Shown here: in pieces, positions 39,125 to 53,791 of the stretch | Position numbering within the stretch: position 1 is the stretch's first letter | How the letters are laid out: the number at the start of each line of letters is the position of its first letter | NCBI RefSeq assembly: GCF_023238445.1 | Contig: NZ_CP096658.1 | Location: 124,001-188,000, forward strand | Reading direction: 5' to 3' | Origin: Halorussus gelatinilyticus | GTDB taxonomy: Archaea; Halobacteriota; Halobacteria; Halobacteriales; Haladaptataceae | Length of the DNA: 64,000 bases | Translations under genes and position numbers: made by a program | The notes under the pieces: model-generated | The model's input: only the letters and a program-made list of their open reading frames with translations | Databases searched by the model: none | What the model was told of the DNA's origin: nothing

Positions 39125-41236
39125 ATGACCGACGTCAAGCGGGAACTGTCGAGTATCGACCTCGCCGCCGTAGTCGCGGAACTCGGCGCGTACGAGGGCG
39201 CGAAACTCGACAAGGCCTACCTCTACGACGACGACCTCCTGCGACTCAAGATGCGGGACTTCGACCGCGGCCGCGTCGAACTCATCGTGGAGGTCGGCGA
39301 GACCAAGCGCGCCCACGTCTCGGCCCCGGAGAACGTTCCCGACGCGCCGGGCCGACCGCCGAACTTCGCCATGATGCTCCGCAATCGGCTCTCGGGCGCG
39401 GACTTCGCCGGCGTCGAGCAGTACGGCTTCGACCGCATCCTCCAGTTCCACTTCGAGCGCGGCGACGAGGACACCACCATCGTCGCCGAACTGTTCGGAC
39501 AGGGCAACCTCGCCGTGCTGGACGAGAACAACGAGGTCGTGGACAGCCTCGACACCGTGCGACTCAAGTCCCGGACCGTCGCGCCGGGGAGCCAGTACGA
39601 GTTCCCCGACGAGCGCATCAACCCCCTCGAAGTCGAGTACGAGACCTTGGTGGCCCACATGGACGAGTCGGACACCGACCTCGTGCGAACCCTCGCCACG
39701 CAACTCAACTTCGGGGGGCTCTACGCCGAGGAGGTCTGTACGCGCGCCGGCGTCGAGAAGGGGAAAGACATCGCGGACGCCGACGAGAGCGACTACGAGG
39801 CCATCTTCGAGGCCATCCAGCGACTCGCCGAACCGGTCCGGACCGGGAACTTCGACCCCCGCGTCTACCGGGACGACGACGTGCTGGTGGACGTGACGCC
39901 GATGCCCCTCGAAGAGTACGCCGACCGCGACGGCGAGGCGTTCGACACCTTCAACGAGGCGGTCGATTACTACTTCACCAACTTCGTGCCGGAGGGCGAG
40001 ACGGAGGCCGAGCAGTCCGTCGGCGACCAGCGCCCCGACTTCGAGGCCGAAATCGAGAAGCAGAAACGCATCATCGAACAGCAGGAGCAGGCCATCGAGG
40101 GCTTCGAGCAGGAGGCCGAACTGGAACGCGAGAAGGCCGAACGACTCTACGGCCACTACGGACTCGCCGACGACATCCTCACGACGGTCCGGAACGCGCT
40201 GGACGAGGGGACCTCGTGGGACGAAATCGAGGCCCGCTTCGAGGAAGGGGCCGAGCAGGGCATCGAGGCCGCCGAAGCCGTGCAGGGCGTTGACCCCGAG
40301 AACGGCACGGTCACGGTCGAACTCGACGGCGTGGACGTGCCGCTCGACGCCGAGATGGGGGTCGAGAAGAACGCCGACCGACTCTACACCGAGGCCAAGC
40401 GCATCGAGGGGAAGAAGGAGGGCGCGCTCGCCGCCATCGAGGACACCCGCGAGGACTTGGAGGAAGTCGAACGGCGCAAGGAGGAGTGGGAGGCCGAACC
40501 GGACGACGGTGAGGATGGGGACGACGAGGACGACCACGAGGACGTGGACTGGCTCTCCCGCCAGTCGATTCCGGTCCGCCAGCAGGAACAGTGGTACGAG
40601 CGGTTCCGGTGGTTCCGGACCAGCGACGGCTTCCTCGTCATCGGCGGGCGCAACGCCGACCAGAACGAGGAACTGGTCCAGAAGTACTTGGAGGGCAACG
40701 ACCTGTTCTTCCACGCGCAGGCCCACGGCGGTCCCGTCACCGTCCTCAAGACCTCCGACCCGAGCGAACCCTCCCGCGACGTGGACGTGCCCGAACGGAG
40801 CAAGCGCGAGGCCGCCCAGTTCGCGGTCTCGTACTCGTCGGTCTGGAAGGACAGTCGGTTCGCCGGGGACGCCTACATGGTCACGCCCGACCAAGTGAGC
40901 AAGACGCCCGAGAGCGGCGAGTACTTGGAGAAGGGCGGGTTCGCCATCCGCGGCGACCGCGAGTACTTCCGCGACGTCGAGGTCGGCGTCGCGGTCGGCA
41001 TCTCGTGTGAACCCCACACCCGCGTCCTCGGCGGGCCGCCCGAGGCCATCGTCCCGCAGGTCGAGACCCACGTCGCGGTCGAACCCGGACGCTACGCCCA
41101 GAACGACATCGCCAAGCGCATCTATCGGGCGTTCCGCGAGCGATTCGCCGACACCTCCTTCGTCCGGAAAGTGGCGAGTCCCGACCTGATTCAGGAGTTC
41201 CTGCCGCCGGGCGGGAGTCGGATGAAGGAGGAGTAG
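39125..41236 (+). CDS. rqcH: RqcH/NEMF (Rqc2) family ribosome quality control protein
   Basis: 703 residues. NFACT-N at the start (LSSIDLAAVVAELGAYEGAK, then PPNFAMMLRNRLSGADF), a long coiled coil (about 310-480) with an acidic DDGEDGDDEDDHED insert, and the NFACT-R/DUF814 domain RWFRTSDGFLVIGGRNADQN (about 493-512). These proteins bind the large ribosomal subunit carrying a stalled peptidyl-tRNA and recruit tRNA-Ala for tail synthesis. Ends in a GC-rich hairpin terminator. ATG 39125. Confidence 0.94.
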   Translation: MTDVKRELSSIDLAAVVAELGAYEGAKLDKAYLYDDDLLRLKMRDFDRGRVELIVEVGETKRAHVSAPENVPDAPGRPPNFAMMLRNRLSGADFAGVEQYGFDRILQFHFERGDEDTTIVAELFGQGNLAVLDENNEVVDSLDTVRLKSRTVAPGSQYEFPDERINPLEVEYETLVAHMDESDTDLVRTLATQLNFGGLYAEEVCTRAGVEKGKDIADADESDYEAIFEAIQRLAEPVRTGNFDPRVYRDDDVLVDVTPMPLEEYADRDGEAFDTFNEAVDYYFTNFVPEGETEAEQSVGDQRPDFEAEIEKQKRIIEQQEQAIEGFEQEAELEREKAERLYGHYGLADDILTTVRNALDEGTSWDEIEARFEEGAEQGIEAAEAVQGVDPENGTVTVELDGVDVPLDAEMGVEKNADRLYTEAKRIEGKKEGALAAIEDTREDLEEVERRKEEWEAEPDDGEDGDDEDDHEDVDWLSRQSIPVRQQEQWYERFRWFRTSDGFLVIGGRNADQNEELVQKYLEGNDLFFHAQAHGGPVTVLKTSDPSEPSRDVDVPERSKREAAQFAVSYSSVWKDSRFAGDAYMVTPDQVSKTPESGEYLEKGGFAIRGDREYFRDVEVGVAVGISCEPHTRVLGGPPEAIVPQVETHVAVEPGRYAQNDIAKRIYRAFRERFADTSFVRKVASPDLIQEFLPPGGSRMKEE

Positions 41237-41245
41237 CGGCGGCGT

Positions 41246-41285
41246 ATCGAGGTGGCCCGCGCGAGCGCGGGCCACCTCGATTTTC
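41246..41285 (+). terminator. strong hairpin terminator after rqcH
   Basis: ATCGAGGTGGCCCGCG (41246-41261) and its exact complement (41266-41281) form a 16-bp stem with loop CGAG, followed by TTTTCC. It begins 10 bp after the rqcH stop. This is a rare bacterial-like intrinsic terminator shape for archaea. Confidence 0.75.
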
Positions 41286-41407
41286 CCGTCCTCCTCACAC
41301 CGCACCGCGCCACGTCCAGCCACGCAAAGACTAAGCTGTTAGCGAACCTACTTACTGTAAGCGAGCCACTTTCTTCGGGAAGCCGAAGCGCCCGCTCGGA
41401 GTTTACA

Positions 41408-42169
41408 ATGTTCAAAACAGCACTCAGATACGTCGTAGACAGCGACGACGGCACCAAAACGTTACTCGTCGGCGGGCTACTCACCCTGTTCTCGTGGCTC
41501 CTGATTCCGGCGGTGTTCGTCGCGGGCTACCTCCAGCGCGTCCTCGCCCGGACGAACGCCGAGGAACCCGCGCCGTCGTTCGACGACTGGGGCGACCTGT
41601 TCGCCGAGGGCCTCAAGGCCATCGTGGTCACGCTGGCGTACTTCGCGCTCCCGGTCGTCCTGCTGACCGCGGTGGCGGCGAGTCTGGTCGTCTTCTCGGT
41701 CGAGACGACGGTCGTGGAGTCCGACGCGGGCCTCCCGACCGACCCCGCGACGGTCGCCGAACCCGTCACGAACGTCGGTCCCGACCTCCTGAGCGTGGTC
41801 GTGGTCTTCGGCGGTCTCGCACTCGCCGGGCTGACCGCGCTCGTCGCGTGGTACGTCCTGCCCGCCGCGCTCGCCCGCCTCGCGGTCGAGGGTCGGCTCG
41901 GCGCGGCGTTCCAGTTCCGACCGCTCTGGCGCGTCGTCACTACGAACTCCTACGCGACCGGCTGGCTGGTCGCGCTGGTCGTCCTCGTGGTCGGCGGGGC
42001 GCTGGTCGGCGCTCTCGCCTCGATACCCTTCGTCGGGTGGGTGCTGATTCCGTTCGCGACGTTCTACCTCGACGCCGTCGCCTTCGCGCTCTACGGACAG
42101 GGGTACCGCGAGGCGACCCCGACCGACCGCCGAGAGACCGTCGGCGGAAGCGAGCGAGCGACCGCCTGA
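41408..42169 (+). CDS. DUF4013 membrane protein, paralogue 1
   Basis: 253 residues. MFKTALRYVVDSDDGTKTLL followed by four to six helices with the DUF4013 pattern: LIPAVFVAGYLQRVL, then APSFDDWGDLFAEGLKAI, then a long aliphatic half ending FYLDAVAFALYGQGYR. The function of the family is unknown. A CTTACTGTAAG palindrome at 41351-41361 lies upstream. First of four tandem paralogues between rqcH and pelA. Confidence 0.85.
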   Translation: MFKTALRYVVDSDDGTKTLLVGGLLTLFSWLLIPAVFVAGYLQRVLARTNAEEPAPSFDDWGDLFAEGLKAIVVTLAYFALPVVLLTAVAASLVVFSVETTVVESDAGLPTDPATVAEPVTNVGPDLLSVVVVFGGLALAGLTALVAWYVLPAALARLAVEGRLGAAFQFRPLWRVVTTNSYATGWLVALVVLVVGGALVGALASIPFVGWVLIPFATFYLDAVAFALYGQGYREATPTDRRETVGGSERATA

Positions 42170-42305
42170 AGTCCGAGGTCGATGCTCCCGAACCTCCGTC
42201 CGCGTTCGAGTCTCCGTCCGCTCCCGAGTTCTCGTCCGCTCTCTCCGCTTCCTGTTCTCACGGGCGAGTAGCCAGACCTAACTTCCCGCGTTCGAAGTTC
42301 CGTGC

Positions 42306-42992
42306 ATGCTCAGCGAGGCGCTCGTCTACCCGGTTCGCGGCGAGGACCGCGAGGAGACCCTGCTCGTCGGCGCGATTCTCGTCGTCACGCTCGGACTCCT
42401 CGCGCGACTCGGCGTCCTCGCGGTCCTCTCGCTCGTCCCCGCCGTCCTGCTGGCCGGCTACGCCCAGTCGGTGTTTCGGGCCACCGTCGAGTCGTCCGGC
42501 GCGTCCGCGGCGTCCGCGGACGCGCCGCCCCGATTCGGGAACGTCCGCACGCTGGCGGCCGACGGCCTGCGCGCGGTCGTCGTCGCGGTCGGCTACCTCT
42601 CGGTCCCCGCGACGGTCCTCGTCCTGACGGTCGGCGGCGCGAGCGCGGGCGGACGACCCGAGTCGTTCGGGACCACGCTGTTCGTCTTCGGCGCGGGCAC
42701 GGTCGTCCTCTTCCTCTCGCTCGGGTTCGCCTACCTCCTGCCCGCGGCGCTGGCCGGGGTCGCCCGGACCCGGACCCTCGGCGCGGCGCTCGACCGCGGG
42801 CGACTCGTCCGGAGCGCGCGGAGCGGCGGTTACTTCGTCGCCTTGGTCGCGGCGGTCGTCACGAGCGTCGTCTTCGCCGTCGCGCTCGGATCGCTGGCCG
42901 CGTTCGGGCGGCCGGGCGAGGTGGCGGCGCTCGCCGGCGGCTTCTACGCGCTGGTCGTGGTCGCGCGGCTGGTGGGTCGCGGGGTCGCTTGA
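42306..42992 (+). CDS. DUF4013 membrane protein, paralogue 2
   Basis: 228 residues, shorter than paralogue 1 and more diverged. MLSEALVYPVRGEDREETLLV matches the family start, and FGNVRTLAADGLRAVVVAVGYL takes the place of the FDDWGDLF stretch. Four to six helices follow. The C-terminus GGFYALVVVARLVGRGVA is the source of the 45-bp repeat found again after paralogue 3. Function unknown. Confidence 0.82.
   Translation: MLSEALVYPVRGEDREETLLVGAILVVTLGLLARLGVLAVLSLVPAVLLAGYAQSVFRATVESSGASAASADAPPRFGNVRTLAADGLRAVVVAVGYLSVPATVLVLTVGGASAGGRPESFGTTLFVFGAGTVVLFLSLGFAYLLPAALAGVARTRTLGAALDRGRLVRSARSGGYFVALVAAVVTSVVFAVALGSLAAFGRPGEVAALAGGFYALVVVARLVGRGVA
42935..42979 (+). repeat. 45-bp direct repeat, copy 1
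   Basis: This segment is identical base for base to 43893-43937. It encodes the C-terminal helix of paralogue 2. The two copies start 958 bp apart and flank paralogue 3. Confidence 0.95.
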
Positions 42993-43041
42993 CCGCTCTC
43001 CACGGTCGTACGCGAAGACTTATCGGAACGACGACCGTTCG

Positions 43042-43875
43042 TTGAGGACACTCGTGGACTGGCTCCGATACCCGCTGTCGGGCGAGACGCCCGCTCGGAC
43101 GCTGGCCGTCGGCGCGGCGCTGAGTGCGCTCGGTGTACTGATACTTCCCGCGCTCGTCGTCACCGGCTACTACGGCCGGGTCCTCGACCGGAGTTCCCGC
43201 GGCGCGGACGCTCCGTCGTTCGAGTCCGTCGGCGACCTGCTCGCGTCCGGGTTTCGGACGTGGGCGGTCCTCGCCGGGTATCTGCTCGTCGGCGTGGTCG
43301 CGGTCGCCGTTCTCGGGGTCATCACGCTCGTGCTAGGCGGGGCGAACACCGGCCTCGGCGCCGCGTTCGGTGCGCTGGTAATCGGCGCGCTGTTGGTCAC
43401 GGCGGTCGGGCTACTGGCGTTCCCCGCGTGGTACTTCGTGCCCGCCGCGTTGACTCGCGTCGCCCGCGAGCAGTCTATCAGGGCCGGATTCGAACTGCGG
43501 GCCGTCTGGCGGGTCATCTCCGACCGGCGGTACTTCGCGAGGTGGCTCGCCGGCTTCGGCGCGTTCGCGGGTGGGTCGGTGGGGTACGCGGGTCTCAGCG
43601 CGCTGGACGTCGGCGTGCCGCTGGTCGGGCACGTCCTCGGAACCGGACTCAACTTCTACTCCGGGGTCGTGGCCGTCCACTTGTGGGGCCGGGGGTACGC
43701 GGCCGCGAGCGACGAGTCGGCGGTCGCGGACTCTCCGGCCACCGACTCTCCGGCCGCCGACTCCGCGCCCGATTCGACCGCCGACCGCGCAGACGACCGA
43801 GAGCCGGGCCGGTCTGCGGAGTGGGGTGCGGACGCCGCGCGCTGGCGGGAGCGCCGCCGCGAGGGCGGCGAGTAG
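43042..43875 (+). CDS. DUF4013 membrane protein, paralogue 3
   Basis: 277 residues if the TTG at 43042 is used; a GTG at 43054 would give 273, and I cannot decide between them. The start RTLVDWLRYPLSGETPARTL, APSFESVGDLLASGFR and FYSGVVAVHLWGRGYA fit the family. A Ser/Asp/Ala-rich tail from about residue 230 and a final basic RWRERRREGG stretch are unusual. AGACTTATCGG before the start is a TATA candidate. It is followed by a fragment of another paralogue. Confidence 0.78.
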   Translation: MRTLVDWLRYPLSGETPARTLAVGAALSALGVLILPALVVTGYYGRVLDRSSRGADAPSFESVGDLLASGFRTWAVLAGYLLVGVVAVAVLGVITLVLGGANTGLGAAFGALVIGALLVTAVGLLAFPAWYFVPAALTRVAREQSIRAGFELRAVWRVISDRRYFARWLAGFGAFAGGSVGYAGLSALDVGVPLVGHVLGTGLNFYSGVVAVHLWGRGYAAASDESAVADSPATDSPAADSAPDSTADRADDREPGRSAEWGADAARWRERRREGGE

Positions 43876-43890
43876 CGCGACGGAGAGTAG

Positions 43891-43953
43891 CGCGGCGGCT
43901 TCTACGCGCTGGTCGTGGTCGCGCGGCTGGTGGGTCGGGGTATCGCGGGGTGA
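43891..43953 (+). pseudogene. fragment of a DUF4013 paralogue C-terminus
   Basis: Reading GGFYALVVVARLVGRGIAG then stop, in frame with the C-terminal helix of paralogue 2. An in-frame TAG at 43888-43890 precedes it, so nothing before it is coding. The first 45 bp are identical to 42935-42979. It is a remnant left by a tandem duplication or by unequal recombination. Confidence 0.7.
43893..43937 (+). repeat. 45-bp direct repeat, copy 2
   Basis: Identical to 42935-42979. It lies 18 bp after the stop of paralogue 3. The absence of any mismatch over 45 bp suggests a recent event or gene conversion. Confidence 0.95.
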
Positions 43954-44042
43954 GGTTACGCCGACCCGAGAACGTCGAAACGGCCTCTCGTCGTCGGAGA
44001 CGGAGTACGAAAACTTAAGTAACGGATGTGTCAATTCAGGGC

Positions 44043-44807
44043 ATGACAGAACGCTCGACCGGCGACTTGCTGACGCGGGGACTCTCGTTCCCGATGTCCG
44101 ACGACGACTGGCTCGTGACCAACCTCATCGGGGGCGGCCTGTTGCTGTTCTCGTTCCTCCTGCTCCCGATGTTGGCGGTTCAGGGGTTCCTCGTGGAGGT
44201 GATGAGCGAGGCGCTCGGCGAGGACGACGACATCCCCGAGTGGGGCGACTTCGGCTTCGGCGTCATGATGACGGGCCTGAAGTCGCTCGTCCTCGGGTTC
44301 CTCTACCTGCTCGTGCCGACCGCGGCGTTCGTCGCGTTCTTCCTGCTCGGCATCGGTGCCGGTACCGCCTCGGGCAGTCAGGACCTCGCGGGACTGTTCA
44401 CCGCGGGCGGCGGACTCCTCTTCCTCGTACTGTTGCTCGCGTTCGGCTACGTCGCCCCCGCGGCGCAGGTGAACTTTGCGCGCGAGCGGACCATCGGCGC
44501 GGGCTTCGACTTCGACACCATCTTCGAGGTGGCAACCAGTTCCGAGTACGTCGTGGGCTGGGTGCTGGCGTTCATAATCATCGCGGTCCAAGGGCTGGTC
44601 GCCAACCTCATCTCGCTGACTATCGTCGGCATCCTCTTCCTGCCGTGGGTGTACTTCTTCTTCAGCGTGTCCACGTTCTACATCTACGGACGCTCGTTCG
44701 CCAACGCGTTGGACCTCGACTCGGAGTCGCCCGAGGGCCGCGGTCGGACCCCCGAGACCCGGACCGACGACGGCCTGACCGACGACGACACTCGGATGAT
44801 AAGCTGA
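44043..44807 (+). CDS. DUF4013 membrane protein, paralogue 4
   Basis: 254 residues. [22 protein letters not shown] is the closest match of the four to the family start. Then [20 protein letters not shown] and a distal [22 protein letters not shown] 44043 is preceded by AAACTTAAGT about 25 nt upstream, consistent with a leaderless transcript. It is the nearest neighbour of pelA (52 bp between stop and start). Confidence 0.88.
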
Positions 44808-44859
44808 CAGGGCACCCCGAATAGCAGGACACTTACCTCCAACGCACGCACGAAACGGT

Positions 44860-45927
44860 ATGCGAATCACGAGCAGAGAACCCGCCGAGGGCCGCCGAGA
44901 GCGCATCGCGCTCGTCCCCGAGACCCTCGACGACCTCTGGCATCTCACCTACGTCCTCGAACCCGGTGACTTCGTGGCCGCCGACACGACCCGGCGCATC
45001 CAGCGCAACGACGACCAGATGCGTGACACCGGCGGCGAGCGCGAACACATGCACGTCACCTTGGAAGTCGAGGACACCGAGTTCCACAAGTTCTCGAACC
45101 GCCTGCGCATCAGCGGCGTCATCGAGAGCGCCTCCCGCGAGGACCAACTCGGCCAGCACCACACCGTCAACGTCGAGGAGAACAAGGAACTGACGATAGA
45201 GAAGGTCTGGAAGACCGACCAACTCGACCGCCTCGAAGAGGCCGAGGAAGCCACCGAGAACGCCGACGTCGCCATCGTCACCGTCGAGGAGGGGAAGGCC
45301 CACATCCACACGGTCGCCCAGTACGGCACCGAAGAGCGCGCCGAGTTCACGGGCACGACCGGGAAGGGCGAGTTCGCCCGCGGCCGGGACGAACTGTTCG
45401 CGGAACTGACCGGCGCGCTCGAACGACTCGACGTGGACGCCATCATCCTCGCCGGGCCGGGGTTCACCAAGCAGGACGCGCTCGACTACGTCGAGGAGAA
45501 CGCTCGGGACCTGACCGAGAAGATCACCACCGTGGACACCAGCGCGGTCGGCGACCGAGGCGTCCACGAGGTCCTCAAGCGCGGCGCGGTCGAAGAGGTC
45601 CAGAAGGACACCCGTATCGCCCAGGAGGCCGAACTCATCGACGAACTCACCAAGCGCATCGGCGAGGGCGTGAAGGTCGCCTACGGTGCCGAGCAGGTCG
45701 AGAAGGCCGCCGACTTCGGAGCCATCGAACACCTCCTGCTTCTGGACGAGCGCCTGCGCGAGGAGCGGGGTGCCGACGGCGAGTGGGCGTTCGACGTGAA
45801 CGAACTCATCAGGACGACCGAGCAGAAGGGCGGCGACGTGACGGTCTTCTCCAGCGAGTTCGCGCCGGGCGACCAACTCGCGGGCTTCGGGGGCATCGCC
45901 GCACTCTTGCGCTATCGGCTCGAATAG
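44860..45927 (+). CDS. pelA: pelota (mRNA surveillance, ribosome rescue)
   Basis: 355 residues, full length. Three eRF1-like domains: the Sm-like N-terminal part (about 1-125, with [20 protein letters not shown]), the middle domain starting near 130 ([16 protein letters not shown]), and the C-terminal domain (about 250-355, ending [20 protein letters not shown]). There is no GGQ, as expected, so it does not hydrolyse peptidyl-tRNA. It dissociates stalled ribosomes with its GTPase partner, aEF1A in archaea. Confidence 0.96.
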
Positions 45928-50767: not shown

Positions 50768-52102
50768 ATGGCAGAACGAGAGACGTGGACGAGTCGCATC
50801 GGATTCATCTTCGCCGCCGTCGGGAGCGCGGTCGGTCTCGGGAACATCTGGTCGTTCCCGTTCCAGACCGCCGCGAACGGCGGCGCGGCGTTCCTCGTCG
50901 TCTACCTGTTGGCGGTCTTCCTCATCGGTTTCCCGACGATGATGGTCGAGTTCGTCATCGGTCGGCGCGGCGAGAGCAACCCCGTGGCCGCGTTCGAGAA
51001 ACTCGGCTACGGCAACTGGTCGTTCACCGGCGGCCTCGGCGTGTTCTCCTCGCTGGTGACGCTGTCGTTCTACAGCGTCGTCGGCGGGTGGGTCCTCAGC
51101 TACATCGCCGGTAGCGTCACGGGCGGGTACTTCGGCGACGCCGGAGCGTACTTCGGTTCCGTCGCCTCCGGTCCCGTCGCCATCGGCGCACACCTCGTCT
51201 TCATGGCGATTACCATCGGTATCGTCGCGTCGGGCGTCACCGACGGCATCGAGCGCGCGACGAAGGTCATGATTCCCGCGATTCTGGTTCTGCTGGTCGG
51301 ACTCGCCGCGTGGGCGACCACGCTGGAGGGCGCCACCGCGGGCTACGAGTACTACCTCTCGCCGGACTTCGGCGTCATCGCCAGCAACTTCGGCTCCATC
51401 GTCCCGCCCGCGATGGGTCAGGCGTTCTTCACCCTCTCGCTCGGGTTCAGCGTGATGATAGCCTACTCGTCGTACCTCGGGCGCGACGACAGTCTCCCGG
51501 CGGACGGCGGCGCTATCGTCGTCGTGAATACGCTGGTCGCGCTACTGGCCGGGTTCGTCGTCTTCCCCATCCTGTTCGCCACGGGCGGCGCGGAAGGCGC
51601 TGGCGGCGGTGCTGGCACTGCCTTCATCGCGCTGGCTGGCGCGTTCGGCAACCTCCCGGCGGGCGGCGTCATCGGCTTCGTCTTCTTCGCCGTCCTGCTG
51701 TTCGCGGCCCTCTCCAGTTCCATCAGTCTGCTGGAGGTGCCGGTGTCGTACGTCACCGAGAACTACGGCGTCGGCCGACGCACGACCGCCCTGGCGATGG
51801 GCGCGGCCATCGCGGTCATCGGCCTGCCCGCGACGTTCGGCACGACGTGGCTCGACTTCTACAACGACGTGGTGTTCAACCTCCTGCTTCCCATCTCGGT
51901 GTTCCTGCTGGCCATCTTCGTCGGCTGGGTCGCCGACCGCGAGGCCATCGACGAACTCGGTCGCGGCTCGTCCATCGGCTCGTCGTTCACCACGGCGTGG
52001 CTCTGGTGGGTTCGCATCGTCGTCCCGACCGTCGTCCTCATGACGCTCTGGCTCGGTCTCGAAACGCTCTACGAGGGTCTCACCACCGGGGGCTACTTCT
52101 AA
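50768..52102 (+). CDS. NSS-family sodium-dependent symporter 1
   Basis: 444 residues, about 11 to 12 helices. GSAVGLGNIWSFPFQTAANG (residues 17-36) is the helix 1 signature with the unwound substrate site; most homologues have RFP where this has SFP. LSFYSVVGGWVLSYI is helix 3. It should take up an amino acid or compatible solute with Na. TTTATATC about 30 nt before the ATG suggests a leaderless transcript. Forms a near pair with the second NSS gene. Confidence 0.93.
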   Translation: MAERETWTSRIGFIFAAVGSAVGLGNIWSFPFQTAANGGAAFLVVYLLAVFLIGFPTMMVEFVIGRRGESNPVAAFEKLGYGNWSFTGGLGVFSSLVTLSFYSVVGGWVLSYIAGSVTGGYFGDAGAYFGSVASGPVAIGAHLVFMAITIGIVASGVTDGIERATKVMIPAILVLLVGLAAWATTLEGATAGYEYYLSPDFGVIASNFGSIVPPAMGQAFFTLSLGFSVMIAYSSYLGRDDSLPADGGAIVVVNTLVALLAGFVVFPILFATGGAEGAGGGAGTAFIALAGAFGNLPAGGVIGFVFFAVLLFAALSSSISLLEVPVSYVTENYGVGRRTTALAMGAAIAVIGLPATFGTTWLDFYNDVVFNLLLPISVFLLAIFVGWVADREAIDELGRGSSIGSSFTTAWLWWVRIVVPTVVLMTLWLGLETLYEGLTTGGYF

Positions 52103-52426: not shown

Positions 52427-53791
52427 ATGACACGCGAATCGTGGCACACCCGCCTCGGCTTCATCCTCGCCGCGGTCGGGAGCGCCGTCGGACTCGGTAA
52501 CGTCTGGCGCTTCCCGTGGATGACCGCCGAGAACGGCGGGAGCGCCTTTCTGGTCGTGTATCTCGGTATCGTCCTGTTGGTCGGCGTCCCCGGACTCCTC
52601 GCGGAGTTCGTCATCGGGCGACGCTCTCAGCGCAATCCGGCGGGCGCGCTCTACCGACTCTCGTCGGGGTCGAAATCGTGGCGCGCGGTCGGCCTGTTCG
52701 GCGTCGTGACCGCCCTCGTTCTGCTGTCGTTCTACAGCGTCGTCGGCGGGTGGATTCTCCGGTACTTCCTCGCCAGTTTCACGGGGTCGTACTTCGGGTC
52801 GCCGGGCGCGTACTTCGGGAGCATCGACTTCGGGGTTCAGGCGGTCGGGTTCCACGTCGGGTTCCTCGCGCTGACCGCGCTGGTCGTGGTCGGCGGGGTC
52901 CGCGACGGCATCGAGAAGGCGACGAAAGTGATGATGCCCGCCATCGTCGTCCTGCTGGTCGCGCTGGCGGCGTGGGCGGTCACGCGGCCCGGAGCAGGCG
53001 CGGGCCTGTCGTTCTACCTCGACTTCGACGCGGCCTACCTCCGCGCGAACTTCTTCGACGTGCTGGGCGCGGCGGCCGGACAGGCGCTGTTCACCCTCTC
53101 GCTCGGCGTCGGCACGATGATAACCTACGCCTCGTATCTCGGTGACGACAACAACCTCGTCTTCGACGGGAGCGCCATCGCGGTCCTCAACACCGGCGTC
53201 GGTGTCCTCGCGGGCCTGGTCGTCTTCCCGCTGCTGTTCGCCACGTTCGGCGAGTTGACGGGACCGGCGGCCACCGGCGGCGGTCCCGGCGCGCTGTTCG
53301 TGAGTCTCGCCGGCGCGTTCTCGCAGGTCCCACTCGGGCAACCGCTCGCGGTGCTGTTCTTCGGCGTCATCGTCCTCGCGGCGCTCTCCTCGTCCATCAG
53401 CATGCTCGAAATTCCGGTCGCCTATCTCGTGGACGAACACGGCGTCGAGCGCCGGAGCGCGACGCTCGGTCTCGCGGGTCTCGTCCTCGTGACCGGGAGC
53501 GCCAACGCGCTCCGGCCGTCGCTGTTCACCTTCGTCTCCGGGACGCTCGTGAACCTGATGCTGACCGCGGGACTCACCGGCTTCCTCGTCTTCGTCGGGT
53601 GGGTCCTCGGCGCGGACGCCCTCTCGGAGTACTCCTCGGGCGCGGGGTCGCGCGTCCAATCGCTCGGCCCGGCGTGGCTCTGGTCGGTCCGGACGGTTCT
53701 GCCCCTCTTCCTCGTAGCCACGCTCGCGGTGAACCTGCTCGCGCTCGCCGGAATCTCGCCGGCCGCGCTGGTCGGCGCACTGGTGGGGTAG
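52427..53791 (+). CDS. NSS-family sodium-dependent symporter 2
   Basis: 454 residues, about 11 to 12 helices. GSAVGLGNVWRFPWMTAENG has the Arg of the extracellular gate, unlike symporter 1. The rest matches symporter 1 along the full length (for example LSFYSVVGGWILRY). Probable Na-coupled uptake of an amino acid. ATG 52427 follows a TATA-less region; a GGAG lies about 10 nt upstream. The 324-nt gap before it holds the tandem array and hairpin described above. Confidence 0.93.
   Translation: MTRESWHTRLGFILAAVGSAVGLGNVWRFPWMTAENGGSAFLVVYLGIVLLVGVPGLLAEFVIGRRSQRNPAGALYRLSSGSKSWRAVGLFGVVTALVLLSFYSVVGGWILRYFLASFTGSYFGSPGAYFGSIDFGVQAVGFHVGFLALTALVVVGGVRDGIEKATKVMMPAIVVLLVALAAWAVTRPGAGAGLSFYLDFDAAYLRANFFDVLGAAAGQALFTLSLGVGTMITYASYLGDDNNLVFDGSAIAVLNTGVGVLAGLVVFPLLFATFGELTGPAATGGGPGALFVSLAGAFSQVPLGQPLAVLFFGVIVLAALSSSISMLEIPVAYLVDEHGVERRSATLGLAGLVLVTGSANALRPSLFTFVSGTLVNLMLTAGLTGFLVFVGWVLGADALSEYSSGAGSRVQSLGPAWLWSVRTVLPLFLVATLAVNLLALAGISPAALVGALVG

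Follow-up and report, generated by a model that had tools for sequence, protein, structure and literature searches.

A displaced gene end beside a DUF4013 paralogue in Halorussus, read as a trace of gene acquisition

The locus and its direct repeat

The window (the whole stretch of DNA that was analysed, 64 kb) comes from a Halorussus genome, here G000, which is a single contig of 3.67 Mb; its relatives are likewise given by number. At the locus described here, the gene order is RqcH, P1, P2, P3, a stranded gene tail, P4 and pelota, and P1 to P4 are all four DUF4013 proteins according to Pfam. The RqcH-pelota interval (39125-45927) is packed with these paralogues, and both flanking genes belong to ribosome rescue. 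The features are as follows.

39125..41236, + strand: RqcH (NEMF/NFACT; NCBIfam RqcH_arch, E 2.1e-257; Pfam NFACT), left anchor of the variable interval
41408..42169, + strand: P1, DUF4013 protein (Pfam PF13197, E 3.4e-29)
42306..42992, + strand: P2, DUF4013 protein (Pfam PF13197, E 3.3e-24)
42935..42979, + strand: copy 1 of the 45-bp exact repeat, inside the 3' end of P2
42980..42992, + strand: present P2 3' end, GVA-stop type, read as donor-derived (18 bp from 42980 were compared)
42993..43053, + strand: P2-P3 gap, of lower G+C (0.59)
43054..43875, + strand: P3, DUF4013 protein (Pfam PF13197, E 3.1e-24), read as the inserted gene
43868..43897, + strand: imperfect tandem repeat with a 15-bp unit (defined by eye) that spans the P3 stop codon, where the illegitimate junction is presumed to lie
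43893..43937, + strand: copy 2 of the 45-bp exact repeat, the stranded P2 tail, read as native
43938..43955, + strand: remainder of the stranded tail, with TGA at 43951-43953, an IAG-stop end near the ISG-stop type
44043..44807, + strand: P4, DUF4013 protein (Pfam)
44860..45927, + strand: pelota gene (NCBIfam pelota, E 6.5e-90), right anchor of the variable interval

P2 has near full-length matches, with 51-85% identity, in 14 of the 17 other Halorussus genomes. In G007 the P2 match falls into two pieces (L047:4698-5317; residues 1-64 and 93-228), perhaps reflecting a frameshift or a broken gene. A GTG start is assumed for P3, and a TTG at 43042 is also possible. Literature searches for DUF4013 returned only a cotton study, and those combining Halorussus with horizontal gene transfer and recombination returned nothing on point, as judged from titles and abstracts.

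The initial annotation had reported that positions 42935-42979 recur without mismatch at 43893-43937, and this is indeed the case, with 45/45 identical positions at a spacing of 958 bp. This is the longest exact direct repeat of the window, in which three such repeats of at least 20 bp occur (45, 31 and 29 bp). The 29-bp repeat is tandem and of low complexity, and the 31-bp repeat (51061-51091 and 52723-52753) lies in two neighbouring transporter-like paralogues, a family assignment made by eye. Because the longest exact repeat in each of 30 order-5 Markov simulations of the window reached only 17-22 bp, a chance origin of the 45-bp repeat was rejected.

The coordinates also agree with the annotation in that the two copies flank P3, that an in-frame TAG lies upstream of copy 2 (43888-43890) and that a stop at 43951 is in frame with copy 2 (TGA 43951-43953). 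Expression of the stranded stub together with P3 was considered and rejected, as copy 2 lies in the P3 frame but after two TAG codons, and the shared frame was judged incidental. The further suggestion that recombination between the copies could delete P3 holds in principle, as joining the flanks in silico removes the 958-bp unit and yields an intact P2 of 229 aa ending in GRGIAG. It is reasonable to regard the repeat as a candidate deletion hot spot, all comparisons reported here being between species and none within the host species. The 958-bp unit holds no recognised gene besides P3 and no recognised recombinase or transposase, and no inverted repeat was found at its ends among the 25 longest of 60 pairs.

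Two types of P2 end

The annotation had proposed that P2 be aligned with the fragment and its surroundings. This alignment bears out the match over 45/45 positions, but only 7/18 positions agree directly beyond it, giving the repeat a sharp right edge, and no P2 sequence is recognisable by eye upstream of copy 2, which begins with an abrupt edge at 43893, 17 bp after the P3 stop. Resemblance to P2 genes in general outruns the repeat, as the P2-type 3' sequence of copy 2 runs on through its stop to about 43955, and the stranded tail is 89% identical to the P2 tail of G006 over 63 bp. The fragment had been interpreted as a stranded C-terminus, which is what it appears to be; its description as a decayed DUF4013 fragment is not borne out. 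The Pfam DUF4013 match in P2 spans residues 35-197 and the fragment corresponds to residues 211-228, so that the fragment, an intact 63-bp P2 end, includes no part of the DUF4013 domain. Gene decay was rejected, because the 17 bp between P3 and copy 2 leave no room for a degraded P2 body and the stub retains 45/45 identity. Judged by sequence, the stub is a complete and undecayed P2 end of the commonest type, whereas the working P2 ends otherwise.

Among 15 relatives, ISG-stop is the most frequent P2 end (GISG in G006, G013 and G003, and AISG in G002 and G016; 5/15), GVA-stop is found in G014 and G009, and the remaining 8/15 carry further variants. When the 18-bp ends were compared with those of 12 of the 15 relatives (G005, G007 and G008 being left out), the last 18 bp of copy 2 (43938..43955) agreed at 16/18 positions with G006, 12/18 with G013 and 10/18 with G009, and the 18 bp following copy 1 (from 42980) at 12/18 with G014 and 11/18 with both G009 and G015. 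The repeat itself matches the nearest sampled P2 tails at 41/45 (G014) and 40/45 (G006) positions. Because its ISG-stop-like end is the most frequent type in relatives, the stranded copy 2 is probably the native P2 end. The P2 body can be read as the resident gene and its last codons, of the GVA-stop type, as a replacement. Taken together, the differing ends and the frequent type carried by copy 2 suggest that P3 was inserted along with a replacement tail for P2. Against this counts the shortness of the diagnostic tail, just 18 bp; moreover, the distribution of end types is at odds with the tree (G014 and G009 have GVA, G006 has ISG), so that G000 could natively have had either. A comparison of P2 with G014, G006 and G009 in 60-bp bins revealed no clear upstream crossover; the bin that precedes the end is closer to G006 (0.95 versus 0.90 for G014), and the last 25 bases are closer to G014 (0.84 versus 0.68).

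The same ends make an assembly artefact scarcely credible, as each resembles P2 ends of other species and mis-assembly would hardly create such sequences; in addition, 45 bp is short and the genome is one contig.

A scan for P2 tails covered 20 loci from 18 Halorussus genomes, some of them without P2. Two strong matches occur at the G000 locus only (scores 90 and 79), and no second strong tail was found in the 19 other loci, where the best second match scores 34; as this overlaps the weakest true tails (31-32, in a range of 31-90), a strongly diverged second tail may be missed. A whole-genome DNA search of the 18 genomes returned, besides P2 ends, weaker matches only (best E 3e-4 among the matches listed), and the 45-bp core was not found flanking inserts at the 19 other loci.

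The repeat had been attributed to a recent duplication, deletion or gene conversion. The event does look recent; set against the 14% divergence of P2 from G014, the 45/45 identity of the copies suggests an event younger than the split from G014, unless conversion has acted. Gene conversion alone is insufficient, because the change from 45/45 to 7/18 is abrupt. It is conceivable that P2 or a P2-P3 unit was tandemly duplicated and the second P2 mostly deleted, leaving its tail, with conversion or recency keeping the 45 bp identical. The direct orientation of the copies within a paralogue array of variable size fits this course of events, and polyploid haloarchaea are known for gene conversion, from which such a short identity could come. 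However, a recent duplicate would be expected to agree up to and including the stop codon, yet the two copies end like two different natural P2 genes; extra steps are needed to lose the P2 body, and a second P3 too if the unit was duplicated; conversion would have to work within a stub of ~63 bp; and the 19 other loci hold no comparable second tail. We consider duplication followed by deletion unlikely, and favour an insertion over a plain duplication.

P3 and P4 among relatives and the proposed insertion

A tree of RqcH and pelota from 14 of the 18 genomes (G001, G004, G010 and G015 were omitted, as their retrieved stretches lacked an intact RqcH or pelota) joins G000 with G014 (100), beside G006 with G009 (95), and unites all four at 100. 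Searches with P3 at E 1e-20 found nothing in G014 and G009 and, in G006, only the P1 of that genome (40%). With no orthologue found in these three nearest genomes, P3 is foreign to the recipient lineage by parsimony. Its single clear Halorussus orthologue lies in G002 (59%), behind an ISG-type P2. No closer match that might indicate a donor was found outside G000 among 28 family genomes, and no relatives were found in viral_contigs and plasmids. In the sister genus, homologues with 41-42% identity likewise lie between RqcH and pelota, in G019, G021 and G022.

For P4, by comparison, a search of 28 family genomes, G000 among them, gave G014 as the only other genome with a clear orthologue (88%); the match that ranks next reaches 37%. 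Between G000 and G014, nucleotide identity is 91.0% for P4, 93.3% for RqcH, 93.5% for pelota, 88.8% for P1 and 85.8% for P2. Because P4 is common to both genomes at a divergence like that of its neighbours and P3 is not, P4 is probably the older of the two, and the simplest order suggested by these sequences is that P4 came first and P3 second, entering between P2 and P4. The opposite arrangement would have a resident P2 with the GVA end, P3 and pelota, behind whose P3 a foreign P2 tail with the IAG end was joined together with P4, using homology on the pelota side. Such an arrival would likewise leave a tail between P3 and P4, and G014 is the nearest relative for the body of P2 as well as for its GVA end, so that GVA could be native. 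The apparent age of P4 speaks against it, as does the need for 45/45 identity between the tails of two lineages when the nearest sampled tails reach only 41/45 and 40/45, and we regard it as distinctly improbable.

A comparable case is offered by the sister pair G002 and G016, whose sequences agree at 704/748 positions (94%) across P2 and into its final codon, and at 139/145 (96%) from a point shortly before pelota onwards, P3 replacing 5 bp in between. As G013 shares the P3-less junction with G016 (by eye), an insertion of P3 in G002 is likelier than a loss in G016. No tail copy lies beside P3 in G002.

We therefore favour, as the probable though by no means certain origin of the G000 arrangement, an event in which P3, together with a replacement P2 end, entered a P2-P4 ancestor at the 3' end of its P2; we infer the donor, the direction and the joining chemistry. 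The ancestor would have carried a P2 with a GIAG- or GISG-stop end directly before P4, and the incoming DNA, from another Halorussus-like cell, a P2 3' end of the GVA-stop type followed by P3. The donor DNA would have paired with the resident P2 via the homologous 3' end, with a crossover at or before 42979, and its other end, ~17 bp beyond the P3 stop, would have formed an illegitimate joint with the tail of the resident P2 at 43893. As a result, P2 would have kept its reading frame and acquired new last codons, P3 would have been gained, and the last 63 bp of the resident gene, 45 of them now exactly duplicated, would have been pushed downstream as a non-coding stub before P4. Such a process, which would be a homology-facilitated illegitimate recombination in which the old gene end is displaced, predicts a duplicated block whose left edge (43893) is the illegitimate joint and whose right edge (42979) is the crossover, copy 2 being followed by the end of the recipient gene and copy 1 by that of the donor.

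At the presumed joint, the microhomology amounts to at most ~5 bp, as read by eye without a donor sequence. Just where P3 meets the stranded tail, the tandem repeat at 43868-43897 doubles the stretch around the P3 stop codon; it contains an exact 10-mer at 43870 and 43885 (spacing 15); the 64-kb window holds 19 exact repeats of at least 10 bp at spacings of 8-20. This 15-bp tandem repeat counts against the insertion of P3 as proposed, which leaves it unaccounted for.

Integrases that use gene 3' ends are known to duplicate a core, to restore the gene end with their insert and to displace the native end. The direct core repeat and the restored target gene end are both present at the G000 locus, and by the same anatomy it could be supposed that the 45 bp in the P2 3' end serves as an attachment core, P3 being a non-autonomous element whose insertion rebuilds the end of the gene. 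However, the sole recognised gene of the unit is a DUF4013 protein rather than a recombinase, no second tail accompanies the inserts of the 19 other loci or P3 in G002, and P3 has no relative in viral_contigs or plasmids; a site-specific cassette is thus highly improbable.

Variation of the interval is not limited to G000. P2 and pelota are separated by less than 150 bp between matches in six genomes (G007, G008, G009, G012, G013 and G016), and elsewhere the space holds P3, P4, a convergent DUF4013 gene (G006 and G017), a chemotaxis transducer (G014) or other DNA. The transducer, a PAS/MCP protein gene on the opposite strand (L034:5063-6697), lies between P2 and P4, the place of P3 in G000. 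The family and number of DUF4013 paralogues between RqcH and pelota differ by genome, the sister genus included. One may speculate that the P2 3' end is a recurrent docking point in Halorussus, at which DUF4013 genes are swapped between P2 and pelota by recombination in the P2 tail, the last codons of P2 changing and the array beside the ribosome-rescue genes diversifying; we hold this broader proposal to be rather unlikely.

Comparison with known systems

The locus provides an unusually clean archaeal fossil of gene gain, in which the edges of a repeat mark both junctions and comparison with relatives identifies the displaced gene end; separately, G002 and G016, a sister pair, show P3 present or absent at the same point. 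It illustrates how a small paralogue array between the ribosome-rescue genes RqcH and pelota may grow, and cautions that such a repeat need not imply gene duplication or decay.

Among integrative elements using gene 3' ends, the direct repeat, the restored gene end and the displaced native end find their likeness; the P3 unit differs in measuring 958 bp, in having no recognised integrase and in that its flanking repeat was not seen to recur. Rhs C-terminal displacement, as cited in PMC5361080, similarly leaves orphaned 3' ends downstream of a gene whose tail has been exchanged, whereas the P2 locus has no toxin or immunity content and a single stub of ~63 bp. The same paper describes Vibrio cholerae type VI clusters in which effector genes and orphan immunity genes are displaced, and for which its authors suggest the mechanism favoured here. 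There, too, a conserved upstream part anchors the incoming module and older gene ends are shifted downstream; the exchange, however, brings a new function (PMC5361080), whereas at P2 it involves ~4-6 codons outside the DUF4013 domain and a separate gene.

The closest parallel is homology-facilitated illegitimate recombination itself, described for E. coli conjugation in PMC3240628, with reports in Acinetobacter, Streptococcus and Pseudomonas cited in PMC5361080. As in that process, one end would be homologous and the other illegitimate, and non-homologous DNA would be added (PMC3240628). At the homologous junction, we found 45/45 identity and then a switch to another natural P2 end type (7/18; the donor itself was not seen). 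The bacterial cases are experimental, whereas ours is deduced from an archaeal genome without a donor or readable microhomology. According to PMC7776575, Haloferax volcanii lacks a Ku homologue and employs microhomology-mediated end joining, and such joining could supply the illegitimate joint in a haloarchaeon. The P3 locus is an ordinary, well-resolved case of a known kind of gene acquisition and not a new system.
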